In this document: positions 42,188-62,233 of the stretch, one piece after another | Position numbering within the stretch: position 1 is the stretch's first letter | How the letters are laid out: each line of letters starts with the position of its first letter | NCBI GenBank assembly: GCA_021783095.1 | Contig: JAJXUG010000003.1 | Location: forward strand, 1-64,000 | Source of the DNA: Chloroflexota bacterium | GTDB lineage: Bacteria; Chloroflexota; Limnocylindria; Limnocylindrales; CSP1-4 | Direction: 5' to 3' | Length of the DNA stretch: 64,000 nt | The notes under the pieces: generated by a model | Database searches by the model: none | Seen by the model: only the letters and a program-made list of their open reading frames with translations | Told to the model about the DNA's origin: nothing | Made by a program: the position numbers and the translations under genes

Positions 42188-43573
42188 CTACTCGGCGCGC
42201 GTGGCGCCCGTGAAGCTGAACGACGACAGCCGCACCGCCGGCACCACGCTCCCGCCCAGGAGCCCGCGCAGGCACCGCCGGTCGCGGCTGATCGCCTCGA
42301 CGCCTCCGAGCGCGTCGAGGTACGACATCGTGAACCGCAGGTTCCTCACCGGGCCCACGATCCTGCCGCCCTCGACGAGGAACGTGCCGTCGCGGGTCAT
42401 GCCCGTGATCACCACGCGCTTGGGGTACACCGGGTTGGTGTAGTGGAAGCGGGTGACCAGCAAGCCGCGCTCCAGCCCGCCAATCAGCTCGTCCGTGGTG
42501 GCCTCGCCGGGCGCCATCGCCATGTTGGTCGGGAACGGGCCGTAGGGGTTGGGCGCCGGCAGGCCGTGGCCAGTGGAGTGGTGGCCGGCGCGCGACGCGG
42601 TCTGGGCGTCGAACGCGAGGTCGCGGCAGATGCCGCGGTCCAGCAGCGACAGGCGCTGCTTGGCGACGCCCTCCGCGTCGAAGCCCATGGGCAGCCCGGC
42701 TGGGTCACGGCCGTCGTCGGTGATCGTCACCAGCGGCGACGCGACCTGCTTGCCGGCCTCCCAGAAGGAGCGGTCCTCGGCCACCGCCAGCGCGGAGAAG
42801 CCGAGGTAGCCCAGCATGTCGAGCAGGTCCACGACCGCGTAGTGGTTGAGCACGACCGGGTAGTCGCCGGGCTCGATGTCCACCGGGCTGGCCGATGCTC
42901 GCGCCCGCTCGGCCGCCTCGCGACCCAGGGCCGCGCCGTCGATGGCGGTGGCGTCCACGGAGCAGTCCTCCGCGTAGCCGGTCCCGTTGTCGGGGCCCAT
43001 CGCCACGGTGAGCAGCTGGCTCGTCGTCCGGCGCTCGGCCGCCCGCACGCCCTTCGAGTTGGCGACGGCGAACGCCTCGGCGTCGGTCGAGAACGAGCCG
43101 AACGCCATCACGCCCTCCGCGTCGGCCGCGGCGATCACGGCGCGGGCGCCGTCGGCGCGGAGCTCCGGCGTGGCGCCGCCCGTGCCGTCGGACCAGGCCG
43201 CCTCGACCGGTTCGGCGTTCGTTGCGCCGGGCTCGGGCAGGCCCGCCCAGTCCTCCAGCTCCTCGACGTAGGCGGCAATCGCCGCGGCTCGCTCGACCAG
43301 GGCCCGCAGGCCCTCGGCATCCGTGCGGCCCGACGAGGCCACGGCGACGCGGCGGCCCCTGGCAACCCGCAGGTTCACGGACGCCTCGGACGAGGCCACG
43401 TTCTGGTGGACCTCGGAGTTGGCGAACCGCGTGAGCGCCGACTCGCCGGACACCACCAGCGCCTCGGCCTCGGTGACACCGGCCTGCTTCGCCAGGCGCA
43501 CGACCTCCTCGGCGATGCGGAGCGCAGACTCCGGATCGGCGGCGGCACCCTGGGTTCGCTGCATGCCGCTCAC
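42188..43573 (-). CDS. tldE: TldE/PmbA-type metalloprotease subunit
   Basis: A 461-residue protein of the TldD/PmbA family, without the metal-binding His motif of TldD, as expected for TldE. Typical blocks are RFANSEVHQNVASSEASVNL, RVAVASSGRTDAEGL, DIEPGDYPVVLNHYAVVDLL and VVITGMTRDGTFLVEGG. TldD and TldE form a heterodimer that digests unfolded peptides and matures some ribosomal peptides. The GTG start at 43573 overlaps the tldD stop by 4 bp; ATG 43564 is an alternative. Confidence 0.9.
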   Translation of the reverse strand: MSGMQRTQGAAADPESALRIAEEVVRLAKQAGVTEAEALVVSGESALTRFANSEVHQNVASSEASVNLRVARGRRVAVASSGRTDAEGLRALVERAAAIAAYVEELEDWAGLPEPGATNAEPVEAAWSDGTGGATPELRADGARAVIAAADAEGVMAFGSFSTDAEAFAVANSKGVRAAERRTTSQLLTVAMGPDNGTGYAEDCSVDATAIDGAALGREAAERARASASPVDIEPGDYPVVLNHYAVVDLLDMLGYLGFSALAVAEDRSFWEAGKQVASPLVTITDDGRDPAGLPMGFDAEGVAKQRLSLLDRGICRDLAFDAQTASRAGHHSTGHGLPAPNPYGPFPTNMAMAPGEATTDELIGGLERGLLVTRFHYTNPVYPKRVVITGMTRDGTFLVEGGRIVGPVRNLRFTMSYLDALGGVEAISRDRRCLRGLLGGSVVPAVRLSSFSFTGATRAE

Positions 43574-45012
43574 GACATCACCCCCACCCGCACATTGCGG
43601 AACCGGGCCCCCGAGACGCCGTGGCCCACGTGACCGGTCTGGGTGGGCTCGCCCTTGCCGCAGTTCGGGGTGCCCCACATGCGCCACGAGCTCGCGTCGC
43701 CCACGGCGTCCATTGAGCGCCACAGCTCGTAGGTGATGCCGGTGTACGTGCCGTTGCGGAACAGCCGGCCGACCCTGCCGTTCCTGACCTCGCGGACAAC
43801 CTCGGTCCCGAACTGGAAGTTGAGGCGCCGGTCATCGATGGACCAGGACCGGTTGGTCTCGAACAGGAGCCCGTCGTCGGTGTCGGCCACGATGTCGTCG
43901 AAGCTCATGCCCGGCTTCGGCAGCAGGTTGACGTTGGTCATGCGGATGAGCGGGATGCGGTTCCAGCCGTCCGCCCGCATCGCCCCGCCTGACTGCCGCC
44001 CGATCCGCGGCGCCGTCTCACGGGACGAGAGGTACCCGACGAAGATGCCCTCCTTGATGAGCGGCACCTGCTGCGCCGCGACGCCCTCGTCGTCCCAGCC
44101 GAACGTGCCGAGCCCGCCCGGGGCGGTGGCGTCGGCAACGATGTCGCACAGGTCCGAGCCGTACCTGAAGTTGTCGAGCATGCCCGGCATCAGGAAGCTC
44201 GTGCCGGCGTAGCTGGCCTCGGTGCCGAAGGCGCGGTCGAGCTCGCTCGGGTGGCCGCAGCTCTCGTGGACCTGCATGTAGAGCTGGCTCGGGTGGAGCA
44301 GGATCGTGCGCATGCCCGAGGGGAGGGGCGGGGCGCTCAACAGCTCCACCGCCTCGTGCGCCACGCGCTCCGCGTTGCCCGCGAGGTCCATCGCGCGGAT
44401 GAACTCGTAGCCCGCCGAGCCCCACAGCCCACCGTTGTCGGGGTAGCTCCGCCGCTGGTGCTCGTCACCGTCGATCGCGTTGGCCTCCAGGCCGCTGCCG
44501 ACGTGGGTGATGCGCTGCTCGGTGTAGCTGCCGTCGGACGCGGCGAAGGTCTTCTCCTCGCGCTGCGCCGAGTACATGGACTCGGTCCAGGCGATGCCCT
44601 TCACGGCGTTCATCGCCCGGTCGGCGTCGAGGAGCGCACCGATCTTGCGGTCGAGCGGGACGGCGAAGGGGTCCTCCGCGACGGGCGTCTCGTAGCGGCC
44701 GCGGGCCGGCGGTCGGTCGTCGAGCACCACCCGGTTGCGGATGGTGGTCGCGCTCGCCCGGGCGATCCGGACAGCCTCCGCTGCCACCCGGTCCGCCTCG
44801 GCGGCGCTCAGGTCGTGGCTGGCCGCGAAGCCCCACGCGCCATCCACCAGGACGCGGACGCCGAAGCCCTCGGTCTCGCCGGCCGAGACGCCCTCGACCC
44901 GCGTGGACTTGACGGTGATGGATTCCTCGAGGCGCCGGACCACGCGCACGTCGGCGTACGTGGCCCCCCGCGCGGTTGCCGTGTCGAGGGCGCGGCTGGT
45001 CAGGTCTCGCAT
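43570..45012 (-). CDS. tldD: TldD-type metalloprotease, catalytic subunit
   Basis: A 480-residue zinc protease of the TldD/PmbA family. The metal motif HExxxH appears as HESCGHPSELDRAFG near residue 255, followed by the GYLSSRETAPRIG and TPNCGKGEPTQTGHVGHG blocks that complete the active site region. It acts with TldE, encoded directly downstream. ATG 45012 lies 8 nt after a TACCCT box (45021-45026, minus strand), so the leader is nearly absent. Confidence 0.93.
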   Translation of the reverse strand: MRDLTSRALDTATARGATYADVRVVRRLEESITVKSTRVEGVSAGETEGFGVRVLVDGAWGFAASHDLSAAEADRVAAEAVRIARASATTIRNRVVLDDRPPARGRYETPVAEDPFAVPLDRKIGALLDADRAMNAVKGIAWTESMYSAQREEKTFAASDGSYTEQRITHVGSGLEANAIDGDEHQRRSYPDNGGLWGSAGYEFIRAMDLAGNAERVAHEAVELLSAPPLPSGMRTILLHPSQLYMQVHESCGHPSELDRAFGTEASYAGTSFLMPGMLDNFRYGSDLCDIVADATAPGGLGTFGWDDEGVAAQQVPLIKEGIFVGYLSSRETAPRIGRQSGGAMRADGWNRIPLIRMTNVNLLPKPGMSFDDIVADTDDGLLFETNRSWSIDDRRLNFQFGTEVVREVRNGRVGRLFRNGTYTGITYELWRSMDAVGDASSWRMWGTPNCGKGEPTQTGHVGHGVSGARFRNVRVGVMS

Positions 45013-45320
45013 TGCGGCCGAGGGTACCGTGGCGCAGCGGAGTCGTCGCTGAGGCGAACGGCGTATCCGACGCTGTATCGACCGCGCAACTGCCATGAAT
45101 CTCGGTCGCCGAGCTTCCGCTGCGGTCCGTTCGGCCCCCCTACGGACACCAAGCGGCCCTGTGGTGGAGGGTCAATCCTCCCGACCCTTTCTCCATCCGA
45201 CGACCGTGGCCGCTGACGATCCGCTCTGATCGCCGACTCCCCGGCCGTCGTGCGCGTGTCAAGCGCGGGACGGGCATGCCGAGCGCCCGCCCAACGCCAA
45301 CGAGGGCTGGAGGAGTTGAG
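45013..45320. promoter_or_regulatory. Divergent promoter region between tldD and the hydrogenase operon
   Basis: This 308-bp gap holds the tldD -10 (TACCCT, 45026-45021 minus). The hydrogenase side has no clear -10 but has a good GGAGGAG ribosome site before ATG 45321. A short hairpin, GGGTC...GACCC, lies at 45169-45187. No gene is seen. Regulation of the hydrogenase operon must act here. Confidence 0.45.
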
Positions 45321-46553
45321 ATGGGCGATGCCGGCGGGCTTGTGACGAGCCCCGATCTGCTCTCGGTTGCGGGGGCCGCGCCGCCCGAGCCGACCACCGA
45401 GAACCACTGGCTGCAGGTCGCGCTGGCCCACAAGGGCATCAGCCGCCGGCGGTTCCTCGGGTTCGCGTCGGCGATGACCGCACTGCTCGCGCTGCCGGCG
45501 GCGATGACCCCGCAGATCGTCAACGCGCTCGAGACCAAGAAGAAGCCCGTCGTCGTCTGGCTCGAGTTCCAGGACTGCGCTGGCAACACGGAGTCCATGC
45601 TCCGCAGCTCCAACCCGCCCATCGCCGACATCGTCCTCGACGCGCTCTCGCTCGAGTACCACGAGACGATCATGGCCGGCGCCGGTGCGGCCGCCGAGAA
45701 GGTCCTCAGCGATCACGTCGCGGCAGGCGACATCGACATCCTCATCGTCGAGGGCTCGATCCCGACGGCCGACGGCGGCGTCTACTGCACGATCGCCGGC
45801 AAGACCGCGCTCCAGCACCTGCAGGAGGCAGCTGCCGCCTCGAAGCTCGTGATCGCCGTCGGCGCGTGCGCCTGGGACGGCGGCTTCCCGCGGCTCGGGC
45901 CCACGGGCGCGGTGGGCGTGGGCGACGTCATCGGCAACAAGCCGCTCATCAACCTCGGCGGCTGCCCGCACAACGTGGCCAACACCACGGCCACCATCGT
46001 CCACTACCTGACCTTCAACTCCGCCCCCGCGCTGGACCAGTACAACCGCCCGCTGTTCGCCTACGGCCACCTCATCCACGACCAGTGCGAGCGCCGCGCC
46101 AACTTCGACGCAGGCCGCTTCGTGGAGGCCTGGGGCGACGAGGGCCACCGCAACGGCTGGTGCCTGTACAAGATGGGCTGCAAGGGGCCGCAGGCCACCT
46201 ACAACTGCCCGATCGTGCGCTGGAACAGCGGCACGAGCTGGCCGATCGGCGCCGGCCACGGCTGCATCGCCTGCGCCTCCCCACGCTTCTGGGAGCGGAT
46301 GACCCCCTTCTACGGCCGGCTGCCCGACGTGAAGATGTTCGGCGTCGACGCGAATGCCCAGACGATCGGCCTGGGCGCGATCGGCGTCGTGTCGGTCGCC
46401 ACCGCGGTGCACGCCGGCTCGGTCATCGCTCGCAAGGCGAGAGGGCGTCGCAAGGCGGCTGTCGCGCCCGACGGCACCGTGCACCCCACGCCCGAGCCCA
46501 CCCCTGAGCCCATCCCCGCCGCGCCGTCCGACGGCACCGGCACCAGCGCGTAG
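45321..46553 (+). CDS. [NiFe]-hydrogenase small subunit (group 1), Tat-exported
   Basis: A 410-residue electron-transfer subunit. A Tat signal (SRRRFLGFASAMTALLAL, residues 42-59) marks it for folded export with the large subunit. Cluster ligands: proximal Cys in EFQDCAGN, GACAWDG and NLGGCPHN; distal His/Cys in HLIHDQCERR, WCLYKMGCKG and YNCP; medial Cys in GHGCIACASP. The second proximal ligand, normally Cys (CAGC), is Asn here. A C-terminal membrane helix (IGLGAIGVVSVATAVHAGSV) anchors it. ATG 45321 follows GGAGGAG. It is the first gene of the operon. Confidence 0.93.
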   Translation: MGDAGGLVTSPDLLSVAGAAPPEPTTENHWLQVALAHKGISRRRFLGFASAMTALLALPAAMTPQIVNALETKKKPVVVWLEFQDCAGNTESMLRSSNPPIADIVLDALSLEYHETIMAGAGAAAEKVLSDHVAAGDIDILIVEGSIPTADGGVYCTIAGKTALQHLQEAAAASKLVIAVGACAWDGGFPRLGPTGAVGVGDVIGNKPLINLGGCPHNVANTTATIVHYLTFNSAPALDQYNRPLFAYGHLIHDQCERRANFDAGRFVEAWGDEGHRNGWCLYKMGCKGPQATYNCPIVRWNSGTSWPIGAGHGCIACASPRFWERMTPFYGRLPDVKMFGVDANAQTIGLGAIGVVSVATAVHAGSVIARKARGRRKAAVAPDGTVHPTPEPTPEPIPAAPSDGTGTSA

Positions 46554-46562
46554 GAGCGGACG

Positions 46563-48278
46563 ATGGCGAACGTTGTCATCGATCCTGTCACCAGGATCGA
46601 GGGTCACCTCCGGATCGAGGCCCAGGTTGACGGGGGCAAGGTCTCGAAGGCATGGTCATCAGGGACCATGTTCCGGGGCATGGAGCTCATCCTCCAGGGC
46701 CGCGACCCCCGCGAGGCCTGGATCTGGGCGCAGCGCATCTGTGGCGTCTGCACCACTGTCCACGCGCACACCTCGGTGTACGCGGTGGAGAACGCGCTGG
46801 GCATCGAGATCCCGCCCAACGCCCGGCTGATCCGCAACCTGATCGCGGGCGCGCAGCACATCCAGGACCACGTCATCCACTTCTACCACCTGCACGCGCT
46901 CGACTGGGTGGACGTGACCGGCGCCCTCAAGGCAGACCCGGCCGCGACCGCCAAGCTCGCACAGTCGATCTCGACCTACGGCCGCAGCTCCGAGACGCAG
47001 TTCGCCGCCGTGAAGGCCCGCGTCCAGAAGCTCGTGGACTCGGGCCAGCTCAGCCTCATGGCGAGCGGCTACTGGGGCCACCCGGCCTACCTGCTGCCGC
47101 CCGAAGTCGACCTGCTCGCCGTGTCGCACTACCTCGACGCGCTCGAGTGGCAGCGCGAGGTCATCAAGATCCACTCGGTCCTCGGCGGCAAGAACCCGCA
47201 CCTGCAGACGTACCTCGTCGGCGGCATGGCGTCCGCCGTCGACCCCAACTCGCCCAACGTCATCAACTGGGAGCGGCTGGCGTTCATCCAGGAGCGCATC
47301 AAGATGATGCGTGCCTTCGTGACGGACGTGTACAAGCCGGACGTCCTCGCGATCGCACCGCTGTACAAGGACTGGTTCGGCATCGGCGCCGGGCACAAGA
47401 ACTACCTCTCGTACGGCGCCCTCCAGGACGGGCTCCAGAACGACCAGGCCAAGTTCGGGTTCCAGCGCGGCATCATCGCCAACGGCGACCTGACCAAGGT
47501 CCTGCCCTTCGACCAGCAGAAGGTCACCGAGGCGATCGCCCACTCCTACTACACCTACACGGGCAGCGACACGGCCCTCCACCCGTACGACGGCCAGACC
47601 AACCCCAAGTACACGGGCCCGACGCCGCCGTACGAGAGCCTCAACCTTGGCGACAGCGACCAGTACAGCTGGCTCAAGGCGCCGCGCTACGACGGCATGC
47701 CGATGGAGGTCGGTCCCCTGGCCCGGATGCTGGTCGCCTACGGCTCCGGCAACACCGCCGTCAAGGGGCTGGTCGATGGCGCGCTCCACGCACTGGGCGA
47801 CGTGCCCGCGGCCGCTCTGTTCTCGACCCTCGGCCGGGTCGCCGCCCGCATGCTCGAGACGGTCTACCTGCTCGACCTCATGGACGGCTGGCTCGCCCAG
47901 CTGATGACGAACATGGAGAACGGCGACCTCACGATCCACGACGGCTCGAAATGGGATCCCTCCACCTGGCCGGCCGAGGCCGAGGGCTGGGGCTTCCACG
48001 AGGCGCCGCGCGGGGCGCTCGGCCACTGGGTCAAGATCAAGGACCAGAAGATCGTCAACTACCAGGCGGTCGTCCCGTCCACGTGGAACGCCGGGCCCCG
48101 GGACGAGAAGGGCCAGACCGGGCCGTACGAGGCGTCCCTCGAGGGCACGCCGGTCGCGGATCCCACCAGGCCGCTCGAGCTGCTGCGGACGATCCACTCG
48201 TTCGACCCGTGCCTTGCGTGCGCGGTCCACGTGGTGGATGCCAAGGGGCAAGAGCGGGTGCGCGTGGAGGTGCGGTGA
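46563..48278 (+). CDS. [NiFe]-hydrogenase large subunit (group 1)
   Basis: A 571-residue catalytic subunit carrying the Ni-Fe(CN)2CO site. The N-terminal ligand pair is in RICGVCTTVHAHTSV (L1) and the C-terminal pair in DPCLACAVHV (L2), after which a 15-residue extension ending VRVEVR would be cut off by the maturation protease. The FRGMELILQGRDPREAW and MASGYWGHPAYLLPPEVD blocks match group 1 uptake enzymes. The subgroup (for example 1f, 1h or 1l) cannot be settled by eye. It lies 9 bp after the small subunit and overlaps the cytochrome b start by one base. Confidence 0.95.
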   Translation: MANVVIDPVTRIEGHLRIEAQVDGGKVSKAWSSGTMFRGMELILQGRDPREAWIWAQRICGVCTTVHAHTSVYAVENALGIEIPPNARLIRNLIAGAQHIQDHVIHFYHLHALDWVDVTGALKADPAATAKLAQSISTYGRSSETQFAAVKARVQKLVDSGQLSLMASGYWGHPAYLLPPEVDLLAVSHYLDALEWQREVIKIHSVLGGKNPHLQTYLVGGMASAVDPNSPNVINWERLAFIQERIKMMRAFVTDVYKPDVLAIAPLYKDWFGIGAGHKNYLSYGALQDGLQNDQAKFGFQRGIIANGDLTKVLPFDQQKVTEAIAHSYYTYTGSDTALHPYDGQTNPKYTGPTPPYESLNLGDSDQYSWLKAPRYDGMPMEVGPLARMLVAYGSGNTAVKGLVDGALHALGDVPAAALFSTLGRVAARMLETVYLLDLMDGWLAQLMTNMENGDLTIHDGSKWDPSTWPAEAEGWGFHEAPRGALGHWVKIKDQKIVNYQAVVPSTWNAGPRDEKGQTGPYEASLEGTPVADPTRPLELLRTIHSFDPCLACAVHVVDAKGQERVRVEVR

Positions 48279-49063
48279 TGGCCGCCGTCCAGGTCGTCGC
48301 CCGCGTCCCGGCCGACGACGAGACCATCGGCTCCGAGCCGATCTACGTCTGGGAGCTCCCCGTCCGCGTGACGCACTGGCTGATCGTCATCTCGATCATG
48401 GCGCTCGCGGCCACGGGGCTGTACATCCACGGACCGTATCTGGTGCCGTCGAGCCCGATCGAGGCGTCCTCGCGGATGGCCGACGTCAGGTTCTGGCACG
48501 AGATCTTCGCGATCGTGTTCAGCCTCTCGGTGGCTGTCCGGTTCTACTGGGGCTTCGTGGGCAACAGCTTCTCGAGCTGGCGCCAGATCATCCCCCACCG
48601 GCGCGAGCAGTTCTACTGGATGAAGGAGATGGCCCGGTACTACGCCGGCCTCCGGAAGCATCCCGTGCCCTACGCGGGGCACAACCACCTCGCGGGCCTG
48701 GCCTACACGATCCTGTCGGCGGGCCTGTTCGCGCAGGTGCTGTCGGGGCTGCTGCTGTTCGGCTGGATCATGCCCACCGGCCCGCTCCACCTGCTGTTCG
48801 GCTGGGGCAACTCGGTTCCCCTGGGCGGGATCCAGACCGTCCGGCTGCTGCACAACATCCTGACGTACCTGTTCCTCGCGTTCATGATCCACCACGTCTA
48901 CTCGGCGATCCTGATCGACATCGAGGAGCGCAATGGCGTGCTCTCGTCGATGTTCTCGGGCTACAAGAACATCCGGCTGGGGCGCACGGTCGAGGCGCTG
49001 GGCCTCGTCGGCCGGTCGCCGGAGGAGCAGGCTCGCGAGGGGGACGAGACCGCCGATGCATGA
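48278..49063 (+). CDS. Hydrogenase-linked cytochrome b (membrane anchor)
   Basis: A 261-residue di-haem cytochrome b of the HupC/Isp1 kind. It has four to five membrane helices with haem-ligand candidates in VRVTHWLIV, VRFWHEIF, GHNHLAGLAY and VRLLHNILT/MIHHVYS. The C-terminal EERNGVLSSMFSGYKNI block is the family signature. It passes electrons from hydrogen to the quinone pool. Its presence in the operon argues for a respiratory uptake role. It overlaps the large-subunit stop (TGATG) and overlaps hypA by 8 bp. Confidence 0.92.
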   Translation: MAAVQVVARVPADDETIGSEPIYVWELPVRVTHWLIVISIMALAATGLYIHGPYLVPSSPIEASSRMADVRFWHEIFAIVFSLSVAVRFYWGFVGNSFSSWRQIIPHRREQFYWMKEMARYYAGLRKHPVPYAGHNHLAGLAYTILSAGLFAQVLSGLLLFGWIMPTGPLHLLFGWGNSVPLGGIQTVRLLHNILTYLFLAFMIHHVYSAILIDIEERNGVLSSMFSGYKNIRLGRTVEALGLVGRSPEEQAREGDETADA

Positions 49064-49415
49064 AGCCGGGCTCCTCGCCGCCGCCATCGCCGATGCGCTG
49101 GCGGCGCCCGGGCCCGACGAGGCCGCGGGCCCCGGGGCGGCCGGGGCCCGTCGGCCGGTCGCCGTCGCGATCCGAGTCCTCGACCCGATCCACGTCGGCG
49201 TCGAATCCGCCCGCATGCACGCCGAGCTCGCGCTGCGGGCGCGGGGCCTCGAGGGCGTGCCGATCGAAGTCACCGCGGACCCCGTGGTGTGCCCGATGTG
49301 CGACGTGGCCAACGAGGTCCACGCCGACCACCCGTTCTGCGAGGCGTGCGGCTGGCCGCTGCCCGACCGGGGCGGCCACCAGGTCGAGGCGGTCGTCCGC
49401 TGGACAGCGGCGTGA
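49056..49415 (+). CDS. hypA: Hydrogenase nickel-insertion protein HypA
   Basis: A 119-residue HypA. The nickel-binding MHE start is exact (MHEAGLLAAAIADAL). The structural zinc site is two CxxC pairs, CPMC and CEAC. An unusual 15-residue Pro/Ala/Gly insert follows the first helix. It hands nickel, with HypB, to the large subunit. HypB, C, D, E and F are not in this window. ATG 49056 overlaps the cytochrome gene by 8 bp. Confidence 0.9.
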   Translation: MHEAGLLAAAIADALAAPGPDEAAGPGAAGARRPVAVAIRVLDPIHVGVESARMHAELALRARGLEGVPIEVTADPVVCPMCDVANEVHADHPFCEACGWPLPDRGGHQVEAVVRWTAA

Positions 49416-49455: not shown

Positions 49456-49947
49456 GTGAGCGGCCGCTACGCGGTGCTCGGGCTGGGCAACCGGCTCGAG
49501 TCCGACGAGGCGCTCGGCGGGCTGGTCGTGGAGCGGTTGAGCGGCGACCCGTCCATCCTGGCCGGGCTGCCTGACGTCGACGCCGTGGAGCTCATCGACG
49601 GCGGCACCGTCGGCCTCGGGCTCATCCCGTACCTCACCGGGCTCGATGGCCTGGTGGTGGTGGACGTGATCGCGGCGGGCGAAGCCCCGGGCACGCTGCT
49701 CGACCTCGAGGGCGAGTCGCTCATCCGCAAGGACATCGTCATGAGCGTCCACGACCTCGGCGCGGGCGAGCTGCTCGGCGCGCTGCACGTCATGGACGCC
49801 TGGCCGCGGCGCGTGCGCGTCGTGGGGCTCGAGCCGCTGGCGATCGAGCTGGGGCTTGAGCTCACGCCGCCCGTGGCGGCTGGCGTGCCCGGGCTCCTCG
49901 ACCGCATCGTCGAGCACCTGGGCACCTGGCAGCGCGAGGACCTGTAG
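49456..49947 (+). CDS. Hydrogenase maturation protease (HyaD/HycI family)
   Basis: A 163-residue nickel-dependent endopeptidase that trims the large-subunit C-terminus after nickel insertion. Motif GLGNRLESDEALGG carries the metal-binding Glu and Asp, VVDVIAAG the next Asp, and MSVHDLGAGELL the His. The start is GTG 49456, 40 bp after hypA. It is the last gene of the hydrogenase operon, and its 3' end abuts a truncated minus-strand gene. Confidence 0.9.
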   Translation: MSGRYAVLGLGNRLESDEALGGLVVERLSGDPSILAGLPDVDAVELIDGGTVGLGLIPYLTGLDGLVVVDVIAAGEAPGTLLDLEGESLIRKDIVMSVHDLGAGELLGALHVMDAWPRRVRVVGLEPLAIELGLELTPPVAAGVPGLLDRIVEHLGTWQREDL

Positions 49948-58338: not shown

Positions 58339-60141
58339 TTGACCGAGTTGGGCGAGGACCAGGAGTCGGAGCCGGGGGCCGCGGTCAGCGCGGCCGAGGC
58401 CATCGGGGCCGCAAGCACAACGGATCGCGGCAAGACGGTCCACGGCGAGGCCGCCAATGCGGGCCATCGCGTCCTCGCGCCCGACGATGCCGAAGTGGAG
58501 GCGTATCTCGAGGTCGCGCTCGACGCACCGGCACCGGAGCGCGCTCCCACGGACCCCCCGCTCGCCGCCCTCGAGCCGGAGCCTGGCGTCGTCGCCGTCC
58601 TCGACTTCGGCAGCCAGTTCGCCCAGCTCATCGCGCGCCGCGTCCGCGAGCTCAACGTCTACTCCGAGCTCCTCCCGCACGACACGCCCCTCGCCGAGCT
58701 GGAGCGCCGCGGCGTCCGCGCGATCATCCTGTCCGGCGGCCCCAACTCGGTCTACGACGAGGGCGCCCCGAAGGCCGATGCGTCCATCTGGAGCGGCCGC
58801 ATCCCGGTGCTGGGCATCTGCTACGGCGCCCAGCTGATGGCCCTGGAGCTGGGCGGCGACGTGATGCCGGCCTCGCGCCGAGAGTACGGCCCGGCGAGCG
58901 TCCAGATCACCAGCGATGACGCCCTGTTCGACGGGCTCGACCGCGAGCAGCCCGTCTGGATGAGCCACGGCGACTCGATCACGCGCCTGCCGGAGGGGTT
59001 CGTCTCCACGGCGCAGACGGACTCGACCCCGTTCGCCGGCCTGGTGGCCCCGGCCCGCAACCTCTACGGCATCCAGTTCCACCCCGAGGTTGCCCACACG
59101 CCGCGCGGCAAGCAGGTGCTGCGCAACTTCGTGACGGGCATCGCCAAGGTCCTGCCCGCCTGGACCCCCGCCAACTTCATCGAGACCACGGTCAACGGCA
59201 TCCGCGAGCGCGTGGACAAGCACGCCCGCGAGACCGGTTCTGACGGCAAGGTGATCTGCGCGCTGTCAGGCGGCGTGGATTCGGCGGTGGCGGCCGCGCT
59301 CGTCCACCGCGCGGTGGGGGATCGGCTGACCTGCATCTACGTCGACCACGGGCTGATGCGCAAGAAGGAGTCAGAGCTCCTGCGCGTCACGTTCGAGGCC
59401 AACCTCGGCATGCGCCTGGTCATGGTCGACGCCCGGGAGCGGTTCCTCGCCCGCCTCGCCGGCGTGACCGACCCCGAGGAGAAGCGGCGGATCATCGGCG
59501 ACGAGTTCATCCGGGTGTTCGAGGAGGAGGCGGCCAAGCTGGGCCGCATCAACTTCCTCACCCAGGGGACGCTCTACCCGGACGTCATCGAGAGCACCGC
59601 GCCCGAGACCAAGACCGCCCAGAAGATCAAGACCCACCACAACGTCGGCGGGCTGCCGGCCGATCTCCGCTTCCAGCTGATCGAGCCGCTGCGCTACCTG
59701 TTCAAGGACGAGGTCCGCCTGGTGGGCACCGAGCTCGGGCTGCCCGAGGCGATGGTCCAGCGCCAGCCGTTCCCGGGCCCGGGCCTGGCCATCCGGATCA
59801 TCGGCGAGGTCACGGCCGAGCGGCTGGACACGCTGCGCGACGCCGACTGGATCGTCATCGACGAGATCAAGGCGGCGGGCCTGTACCGGAGCGTGTGGCA
59901 GTCGTTCGCGATCCTGACGCCGGTCCGGAGCGTGGGCGTGATGGGCGACGGGCGGACGTACGCGAACGTGGTGGCGATCCGCGCCGTGACGTCGGAGGAC
60001 GGCATGACGGCCGACTGGGCGAAGCTGCCGTACGACGTGCTGGGCAAGATCAGCTCGCGCATCGTCAACGAGGTGCCCGGCGTCAACCGCGTCGTGTACG
60101 ACATCAGCAGCAAGCCGCCGGCGACGATCGAATGGGAGTGA
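58339..60141 (+). CDS. guaA: GMP synthase (glutamine-hydrolysing)
   Basis: A 600-residue enzyme that aminates XMP to GMP. A glutaminase domain ([20 protein letters not shown], nucleophile in [10 protein letters not shown], His-Glu in QFHPEVAHT) is followed by the ATP-pyrophosphatase domain (PP-loop [15 protein letters not shown]) and the dimerisation domain ([19 protein letters not shown]). The TTG start at 58339 follows GGGAGGGG. It gives an 80-residue N-terminal extension of Ala/Glu/Asp-rich sequence that standard GuaA (about 520 residues) lacks. No later start with a ribosome site is obvious. Confidence 0.95.
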
Positions 60142-60195
60142 CGTACCAGCCAAGTCAGGGGTGAAATCCATCCCTCGGGGGTTCACAATGCGCGC

Positions 60196-60738
60196 ATGCC
60201 CGAGCCGATGAGCACGTCCGAGACCCGCTGCCCCTGGTGCTCTGCCGTCCTGCCCGACGCAACGGCCGAGAAGTGCCCCTCCTGCGGCGCCCAGTTGACC
60301 CGCGCATCCGGGTCCGAGCCCAACGTGCCCGGCGTCACCGCCCTCGACCCGGAGGCCATCCTCCGCGCCCGCTCCGAAGCCGGTCGCTCGCGCGGCGGGC
60401 TGCTCGGGTTCCTGACCGGTCGGGACCTGCCGGAGAGCACCGGCGCCGAGTCGGCCGCCTCGCTGGCGCCGCCTGACGGCAACGTGCGCCGCGAGATGCT
60501 GCGCCTCCGGCGGCAAGCCGAGCAGGCAGACGCCGTCGCCGAGAGCGTGGCCCTGCGCTCGGACGTGCTGGCGGAGCGGGGCATCCACCTCGACCAGCTC
60601 AACGAGCTCGAGGAGCAGGCCGAGGCGGCCTACGAGTCCGAGGTGGAGGGTCGCGAGGTCGACCCCGAGGACCCGCTCTCGCCGACCGCGCCCACGAAGG
60701 CGCCTGCCGAGCCGGACGCGGGTCCGTCGAAGGCCTGA
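60196..60738 (+). CDS. Zinc-ribbon protein with helical C-terminal part
   Basis: A 180-residue protein. The N-terminus has two CxxC pairs (RCPWCSAVL and KCPSCGAQL) that make a zinc ribbon. A variable middle (GLLGFLTGRDLP) leads to a charged helical stretch (NVRREMLRLRRQAEQADAVA) and an acidic Pro-rich tail. The ATG at 60196 lies six bases after CACAAT, a weak -10, so it may be leaderless. Function unknown; zinc ribbons often bind nucleic acid or protein. Confidence 0.72.
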   Translation: MPEPMSTSETRCPWCSAVLPDATAEKCPSCGAQLTRASGSEPNVPGVTALDPEAILRARSEAGRSRGGLLGFLTGRDLPESTGAESAASLAPPDGNVRREMLRLRRQAEQADAVAESVALRSDVLAERGIHLDQLNELEEQAEAAYESEVEGREVDPEDPLSPTAPTKAPAEPDAGPSKA

Positions 60739-60813
60739 CGGTTCGGGATCGACTGGAAGCGGGCCCATCGCCTGGCCGGCACTTGGTTCGTTCCGGCCTA
60801 ACGCCGCGCCCCT

Positions 60814-60924
60814 GAGTCGTCGCAGACTCGTTCTGGGCGCCGCCGTGCGGGCGCCGCGGCGCAAGACCGGGTCTTGCTCGATGAGGCGTGCTCGGAGGAC
60901 CGCGGTTTGAGTCGGTGCCGACTC
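60814..60924. repeat. Three small palindromes upstream of the MFS gene
   Basis: GAGTC...GACTC (60814-60829), GCAAGACC-G-GGTCTTGC (60861-60877, perfect 8-bp arms) and GAGTCGG-TG-CCGACTC (60909-60924) lie in one 229-bp gap. The first and third share the GAGTC arm. They could be operators for the MFS gene or ends of the zinc-ribbon transcript. Confidence 0.5.
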
Positions 60925-60954
60925 GCGGGGCCGGGTCCGGGCCGCCAGCGGGCA

Positions 60955-60960
60955 TAGACT
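60955..60960 (+). promoter_or_regulatory. -10 box for the MFS transporter (leaderless)
   Basis: TAGACT, seven bases (gaggcag), then ATG at 60968. Confidence 0.5.
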
Positions 60961-60967
60961 GAGGCAG

Positions 60968-62233
60968 ATGCTGCAGACCGCGTTCGGCCCCACGCTCGGC
61001 CCGCTGCGCGAGGGGCCCTTCTTCCGCTACTTCACTGCGGTCACCATCTCGTCCGCGGGCAGCTACGCGAGCAGCATCGCCCTCGCGTTCGGCGTCCTGG
61101 ACGCGGCCGGCCCGGCGCAGCTCGCGCTGATCTTCCTCGCCCGCGAGATCCCGATCGTCGCCCTGGTCCTCGCCGGTGGCGTGTTCGCCGATCGGTTCCC
61201 GCGCCACTTGGTCCTCGCCGGCAGCAACCTCGCGCAGGCCGCCACCCAGCTGGGCGGCGCTGCCGTCCTCCTGGCTGGCCAGTCGTCCGGCCACGTGAGC
61301 ACGGAGCTCCTGGCGCTGCTGGCGATCCTGAACGGGATCGCCGGAGCGTTCGGCAGGCCGGCCGTCGCCGGCTTCGTCCCGCAGATCGTCTCGCGGCCCA
61401 ACCTCCAGTCGGCGAACGCGCTGCTGGGGATGACGCGGAACATCGTGGGCATCGCGGGGTCGGTGCTCGGGGCCGGCCTGATCGAGGCGATGGGCGCCGG
61501 CTGGGCGCTGGCCTTCGATTCGGCGACCTTCGTGGTCGCTGCGCTCCTGATGCTGACGCTCGCGCGCGGCGTGACCCGCGCCACGCGGACGGCCAGCCCG
61601 CTGGCCGACTTCGTCGAGGGGTTCCGCGAGGTCAAGGCGCGGCGGTGGCTGTGGGTGACCATCGCCTCGTTCGGCGTGTTCCAGATGGCGTACTTCCCGG
61701 CCGTGCTGGTGCTGGGCCCGGAGGTTGCCCGCGAGCACCTGGGCGGGCCGGCCGGCTGGGCGACGATCCTCTCCCTGGAGCTGGTCGGCGGGCTGGCGGG
61801 AGGCCTCGTGGCGACGCACCTCCGGGCCACGAGGCCGCTGGTCCTGATCTACCTCGCGGTCGCGCCAACGGCGGTGATGCTGGCCGCGCTCGCCCTGGCG
61901 CTCCCGCTGCCCGCCGTCGCGCTGATCGGCGCGCTCAACGGCGTGGGCTTCGCGCTGTCCGACGCGGTCTGGTTCACCACCCTCCAGCGGAACATCCCCG
62001 CCGACGCCCTGAGCCGCGTGTCGAGCTTCGACTGGCTCGGGTCGATCGCGCTCAACCCGCTGGGCTACGCGATCATCGCGCCGCTCTCGGCGGCGGTCGG
62101 CGAGCAGGCGACGCTGGCCGGGGCGGCCGTCCTCCTCGCGCTGACGATCACCCTCCCCCTTGCGTTGGCAGAGGTGCGCGCCCTGCGGTTGCCTGGGTTG
62201 GACGAGGAGCCGGAGGAGGCGGCAGCCGCCTGA
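60968..62233 (+). CDS. MFS transporter, EntS-like exporter
   Basis: A 421-residue transporter with about 12 membrane helices. FFRYFTAVTISSAGSYASSI, GGVFADRFPRHLVLAGSN and GVGFALSDAVWFTTLQRNIP are typical of the MFS_3 (EntS-like) group of exporters. Substrates range from siderophores to drugs, and none can be chosen here. The three palindromes upstream suggest regulation. The C-terminal tail is acidic and Ala-rich. Confidence 0.87.
   Translation: MLQTAFGPTLGPLREGPFFRYFTAVTISSAGSYASSIALAFGVLDAAGPAQLALIFLAREIPIVALVLAGGVFADRFPRHLVLAGSNLAQAATQLGGAAVLLAGQSSGHVSTELLALLAILNGIAGAFGRPAVAGFVPQIVSRPNLQSANALLGMTRNIVGIAGSVLGAGLIEAMGAGWALAFDSATFVVAALLMLTLARGVTRATRTASPLADFVEGFREVKARRWLWVTIASFGVFQMAYFPAVLVLGPEVAREHLGGPAGWATILSLELVGGLAGGLVATHLRATRPLVLIYLAVAPTAVMLAALALALPLPAVALIGALNGVGFALSDAVWFTTLQRNIPADALSRVSSFDWLGSIALNPLGYAIIAPLSAAVGEQATLAGAAVLLALTITLPLALAEVRALRLPGLDEEPEEAAAA

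Follow-up and report, generated by a model that had tools for sequence, protein, structure and literature searches.

A [NiFe]-hydrogenase encoded in the 64,000-nucleotide stretch of Chloroflexota DNA analysed here (the window) carries asparagine in the position of the second cysteine ligand of its proximal Fe-S cluster. The Asn is confirmed as a real feature of the small subunit and is the normal state of a whole, already described lineage, group 1f. In the HupS of mesophilic verrucomicrobial methanotrophs Asn replaces one proximal Cys, a comparable substitution, by Asn or by Asp, occurs in the group 1f enzymes of Roseiflexus, Geobacter and Frankia, and Asn is present in group 2a too (PMC5364354, 2016); Nostoc punctiforme HupS had already been listed with Asn at proximal position 2 (PMC4070099, 2014, Table 1). 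With Asn in groups 1f and 2a thus in print, the window enzyme is an ordinary member of a known lineage, and as a discovery it adds little because residue and group have both been published. Its value is that of a well-sampled case, in which one residue is fixed over a large clade and switches several times to Asp, so that the effect of Asn on the choice between [3Fe-4S] and [4Fe-4S], on H2 affinity and on O2 tolerance is directly testable in group 1f.

The small-subunit gene and the four proximal-cluster positions, the latter placed by alignment, are as follows.

45321..46553, + strand: [NiFe]-hydrogenase small subunit with Tat signal and C-terminal hydrophobic helix (TIGR00391, TIGR01409, PF14720, PF01058, hydropathy)
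45576..45578, + strand: proximal-cluster ligand 1, Cys86, the Cys of DC
45585..45587, + strand: Asn89 (AAC), aligned with proximal-cluster ligand 2
45867..45869, + strand: proximal-cluster ligand 3, Cys183 (GACAWDGG)
45963..45965, + strand: proximal-cluster ligand 4, Cys215 (GGCPHN)

The 410-aa reading frame, on the + strand, opens with the ATG at 45321 and ends with the stop codon at 46553, and a GGAGGAG resembling a ribosome-binding site stands directly 5' of the ATG. The first-pass annotation had the coordinates and start codon right, and an alternative start at the ATG at 45276 is less likely. The protein scores 390 bits against TIGR00391 (cut-off 179.5), its Tat signal reads SRRRFLGF (TIGR01409 match), its Pfam matches are PF14720 and PF01058, and hydropathy places the C-terminal helix at approximately residues 346-371. 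The sequence at the proximal motif is WLEFQDCAGNTES and the stretch around the Asn site is VVVWLEFQDCAGNTESMLR. Gap-free local alignment to E. coli Hyd-1 and other hydrogenases matches the N of DCAGN to the second Cys of ECTGC/ECTCC, just as the first-pass annotation had read the altered CxxC. This column is occupied by Cys in the majority of hydrogenases, by Asp in the Ralstonia actinobacterial-type enzyme and by Asn in Huc. The remaining three proximal Cys are intact, and the distal (His-Cys-Cys-Cys) and medial (Cys-Pro-Cys-Cys) ligands are standard. The two extra proximal Cys of six-Cys enzymes are absent from the window protein, in which the alignment shows Gly at both positions, which rules out the six-Cys [4Fe-3S] proximal cluster of the O2-tolerant group 1d.

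Four further genes follow downstream.

46563..48278, + strand: [NiFe]-hydrogenase large subunit (3myr match, L1/L2 motifs)
48278..49063, + strand: hydrogenase b-type cytochrome subunit (TIGR02125, 134.8 bits, above its cut-off; PF01292)
49056..49415, + strand: short protein (open reading frame) with CPMC...FCEACG, resembling HypA only in its position and Cys motif
49456..49947, + strand: hydrogenase maturation protease, HyaD/HybD/HupD-like, with a GTG start (TIGR00072, 106 bits, above its cut-off)

The best solved relative of the large subunit is 3myr (694 bits), and its L1 (RICGVCTTVH) and L2 (DPCLACAVH) motifs are intact, with a cleavable tail after L2. The short protein at 49056-49415 gave no match in Pfam or NCBIfam. 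HypD and HypF are encoded on another contig, and the genome also codes for two haem-copper oxidase subunits I. Judged by operon content, HypD/HypF and the haem-copper oxidases, the enzyme appears to be a full respiratory uptake hydrogenase, and its host appears to have what it needs to respire aerobically. Beside the operon and divergent from it, at 42188-45096 on the - strand, lie two adjoining TldD/PmbA-like metalloprotease genes.

The notion that the Asn is a sequencing or assembly error, or that the gene is a decaying pseudogene, can be given practically no credence. No point in its favour was found, the Asn is common to more than 90 distinct sequences, and the intact hydrogenase operon argues against pseudogene decay. 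Cys (TGC) and Asn (AAC) are two bases apart, so a single miscall cannot produce the change. Whereas Cys in all close homologues was to have been the sign of an error, every close relative (92, 87, 86, 79 and 77% identical, from separately assembled genomes) has CAGN, and sequence error is ruled out.

The extent of conservation was gauged from 163 small-subunit frames, giving 139 distinct rows, which had been fetched with six peptide patterns. None of these spanned the Asn position, but the pattern ACAWDGGF may have biased the set toward xDGG sequences. At proximal ligand 2 these rows have Asn in 103 cases, Asp in 19 and Cys in 17. In a tree from an IQ-TREE quick search, made without Geobacter Hya, Frankia and group 1l references, the window gene falls in a clade of 112 rows (SH-aLRT 81; 91 and 95 at the forks immediately within it) that draws on Chloroflexota, Acidobacteriota, Nitrospirota and Actinomycetota and comprises 98 Asn, 13 Asp and 1 Cys, so that the question raised in the first-pass annotation, whether Asn is fixed in the clade, is answered in the affirmative. 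The adjoining fork outside it consists of Cys rows (L067, L113 and L114). When the trait column is dropped along with the longest branches, nine changes of the residue label still suffice on the tree, against about 30 in shuffles. Asn has switched to Asp several times within the clade, and nine of the 13 Asp rows form a single derived sub-branch, to which a second hydrogenase of the same genome (L002, CGGD) belongs. The only clear Cys (CAGC) in the Asn clade belongs to a Bryobacterales sequence (L034, 4001-5023) and is either a reversion or a local transfer. Five Chloroflexota rows of group 2a type (L150-L153 and L158) also have Asn, but stand on a separate, very long branch (length 5.39), and Asn was thus most simply gained twice, in the group 1f-type clade and in the group 2a lineage. 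These five lie near HucS (L150 matches the HucS structure 7utd with 632 bits) and have Asn, distal Gln and medial Lys in common. Membership of group 2a (Huc/HupSL) is ruled out for the window gene by the separate branch of the 2a-type rows.

Judged by its sequence, the window enzyme is a group-1f-type [NiFe]-hydrogenase, a label that rests on its nesting with Roseiflexus: the Roseiflexus rows fall inside its clade at approximately 59% identity to the window protein, and the Roseiflexus hydrogenase has been assigned to group 1f (PMC6776052) and is treated as such elsewhere (PMC5364354). The tree groups the gene with both Roseiflexus and Acidobacteriota rows, and CAGN supplies the Asn or Asp that marks the group at proximal ligand 2. 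With group 1f (Roseiflexus, Acidobacteriota, Geobacter, Frankia) it has in common the Tat signal, this Asn/Asp, and standard medial and distal clusters; lineage alone sets it apart, its Chloroflexota branch being the sister of the Acidobacteriota rows. The Tat export signal, membrane-anchor helix and cytochrome b partner, all of which are present, are general features of group 1.

The first-pass annotation had likened the protein to the Ralstonia actinobacterial-type enzyme, recalling an Asp at this position there, and the small subunit encoded on plasmid pHG1, with the same sequence as chain A of PDB 5aa5, does indeed read GLGCDGDS. This group 1h enzyme from Ralstonia (Cupriavidus necator) likewise has a non-Cys residue in the Asn89 column, but the residue is Asp, there is no Tat signal, the medial Pro is replaced by Cys and the match to the window protein is only 81 bits. 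Group 1h is further distinguished by its L1 TSRICGICGDNH and L2 SFDPCLPCGVH (PMC5364354), whereas the window enzyme has a Tat signal, RICGVCTTVH and DPCLACAVH, and the 1h rows lie across the deepest split of the tree. Membership of group 1h is therefore ruled out by an Asn that is not Asp and by a deep branch separate from the 5aa5 row. Of the related non-standard cluster that had been proposed, the non-standard part stands; the closeness to 1h does not (deepest tree split, Tat signal, cytochrome b), group 2a being the nearer match and the tree placing the small subunit with Roseiflexus group 1f. In passing, the Ralstonia gene (L143, 3963-5018; pHG1 59962-61017) was found to be misannotated in the plasmid record as 'hydrogenase expression protein HypE'. 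A made-up 50-residue probe gave no match to the plasmid and, being invented, has no evidential value.

Huc, the group 2a enzyme of Mycobacterium smegmatis (PDB 7utd, 7uus, 7uur, 8dqv), likewise combines Asn (CSGN) with three proximal Cys, HucS reading GGACSGNTMSF (7utd, 7uur) with its Asn in the column of Asn89. It is very distant in sequence from the window protein (about 89 bits) and has the HucM stalk and internal menaquinone reduction where the window enzyme has cytochrome b, and group 2a rows have distal Gln for His and medial Lys for Pro where the window enzyme is standard. Cyanobacterial HupSL (Nostoc punctiforme, group 2a) likewise has the Asn (PMC4070099, Table 1) but belongs to the other group, with distal Gln and medial Lys, and its cluster is reported as [4Fe-4S]. 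From these comparisons Huc is the best structural analogue of the window enzyme, ahead of the Ralstonia 1h enzyme.

The explanation that we consider probable is that of a group-1f-type, membrane-bound respiratory H2-uptake enzyme with a proximal cluster of three Cys and Asn; the analysis demonstrates its sequence, alignment, conservation and operon, while cluster type, potential and physiological direction are inferred. On the outside of the membrane the large subunit would split H2, and electrons would pass from the proximal to the medial and distal clusters, then to cytochrome b and quinone. The proximal cluster, held by three Cys with Asn at the fourth place, would have been fixed in the lineage ancestor and retained thereafter. 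To judge by Huc, the Asn corner probably lacks its Fe, giving a high-potential [3Fe-4S] cluster; an alternative within the same scheme would be a [4Fe-4S] cluster on which Asn or water forms a weak cap. Either type would raise the potential of the relay and bias the enzyme toward H2 oxidation, as general redox chemistry and the Huc study (PMC10017518) suggest. The intact ligands of the active site and of the medial and distal clusters speak for this explanation, as do the operon, the HypD, HypF and oxidase genes, the nesting of Roseiflexus in the clade and the conservation of Asn in 98 of its 112 members, which span four phyla or more.

A proximal cluster held by three Cys is to be expected by analogy, and the Huc precedent makes [3Fe-4S] somewhat the better bet: Huc has [3Fe-4S] at all three sites, as judged from density, the fourth coordinating residue and EPR (PMC10017518), and no other solved structure with Asn there was found. 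That precedent weighs against a full [4Fe-4S] cluster with Asn as fourth ligand, as in HupS and analogous to the 3Cys-1Asp cluster of Ralstonia, yet this reading is a serious contender with not quite an even chance. PMC4070099 and PMC6616624 report N. punctiforme HupS, with Asn at the same position, as [4Fe-4S], and PMC7174314 describes the Ralstonia enzyme, with Asp at the site, as having [4Fe-4S]. In the A. macleodii hydrogenase Asp substitutions are generally tolerated and database-type substitutions are active, natural-type substitutions leaving the model enzyme active (PMC4070099). The Asn/Asp switching in the clade (13 Asp rows) also suggests a ligand role open to either residue. Against this, Asn is a poor ligand of Fe, and [3Fe-4S] appears slightly more likely than an Asn-ligated [4Fe-4S]. 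A search of the open-access literature, with subscription papers outside its scope, found no structure or spectrum of a group 1f enzyme. That some other nearby side chain stands in for the Cys, such as the xDGG Asp (GACAWDGG) or Asp85 before Cys86, is improbable. The xDGG motif occurs in 80 of the 103 Asn rows and in one of the 17 Cys rows, a suggestive count, but the association is not independent on the tree (0-2 informative pairs) and its support is gone once relatedness is considered; moreover xDGG is missing from 23 Asn rows, and Asp85 is found in Cys rows as well.

The first-pass annotation tied the substitution to activity in air. O2 tolerance is unlikely to be the main function of the Asn. 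Carriers in groups 1f and 2a do oxidise H2 in air (PMC6776052, PMC7174314) and Huc is O2-insensitive, but the resistance of Huc has been put down partly to narrow gas channels (PMC10017518). In preliminary tests a Methylacidimicrobium strain whose hydrogenase belongs to the type reported to carry this Asn proved O2-sensitive, the enzyme being inactivated above approximately 0.01% dissolved O2 (PMC5364354). Because of these two cases the Asn by itself does not imply O2 tolerance; the inference is a weak one, and the proposed tie is not safe.

It is conceivable, if rather doubtful, that groups 1f and 2a gained Asn independently and that in both it makes the proximal cluster a high-potential [3Fe-4S]. 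In both groups some members oxidise H2 down to concentrations below that of the atmosphere (PMC6776052, PMC7174314), and if the idea were true the Asn would represent a convergent switch for life on trace H2, a solution different from those of the six-Cys and 3Cys-1Asp enzymes.

The second small subunit of the same genome (L002, 1495-2778; G000:C28:56788-57897) is 43% identical, with Asp at the same site (CGGD), and has Asn in place of the medial-cluster Pro (ISWNVRAGHGC). The pairing of a non-Pro residue (Asn) at the medial site with proximal Asp or Asn, a combination of which we know of no description, recurs in the relatives L104, L109, L110 and L111.
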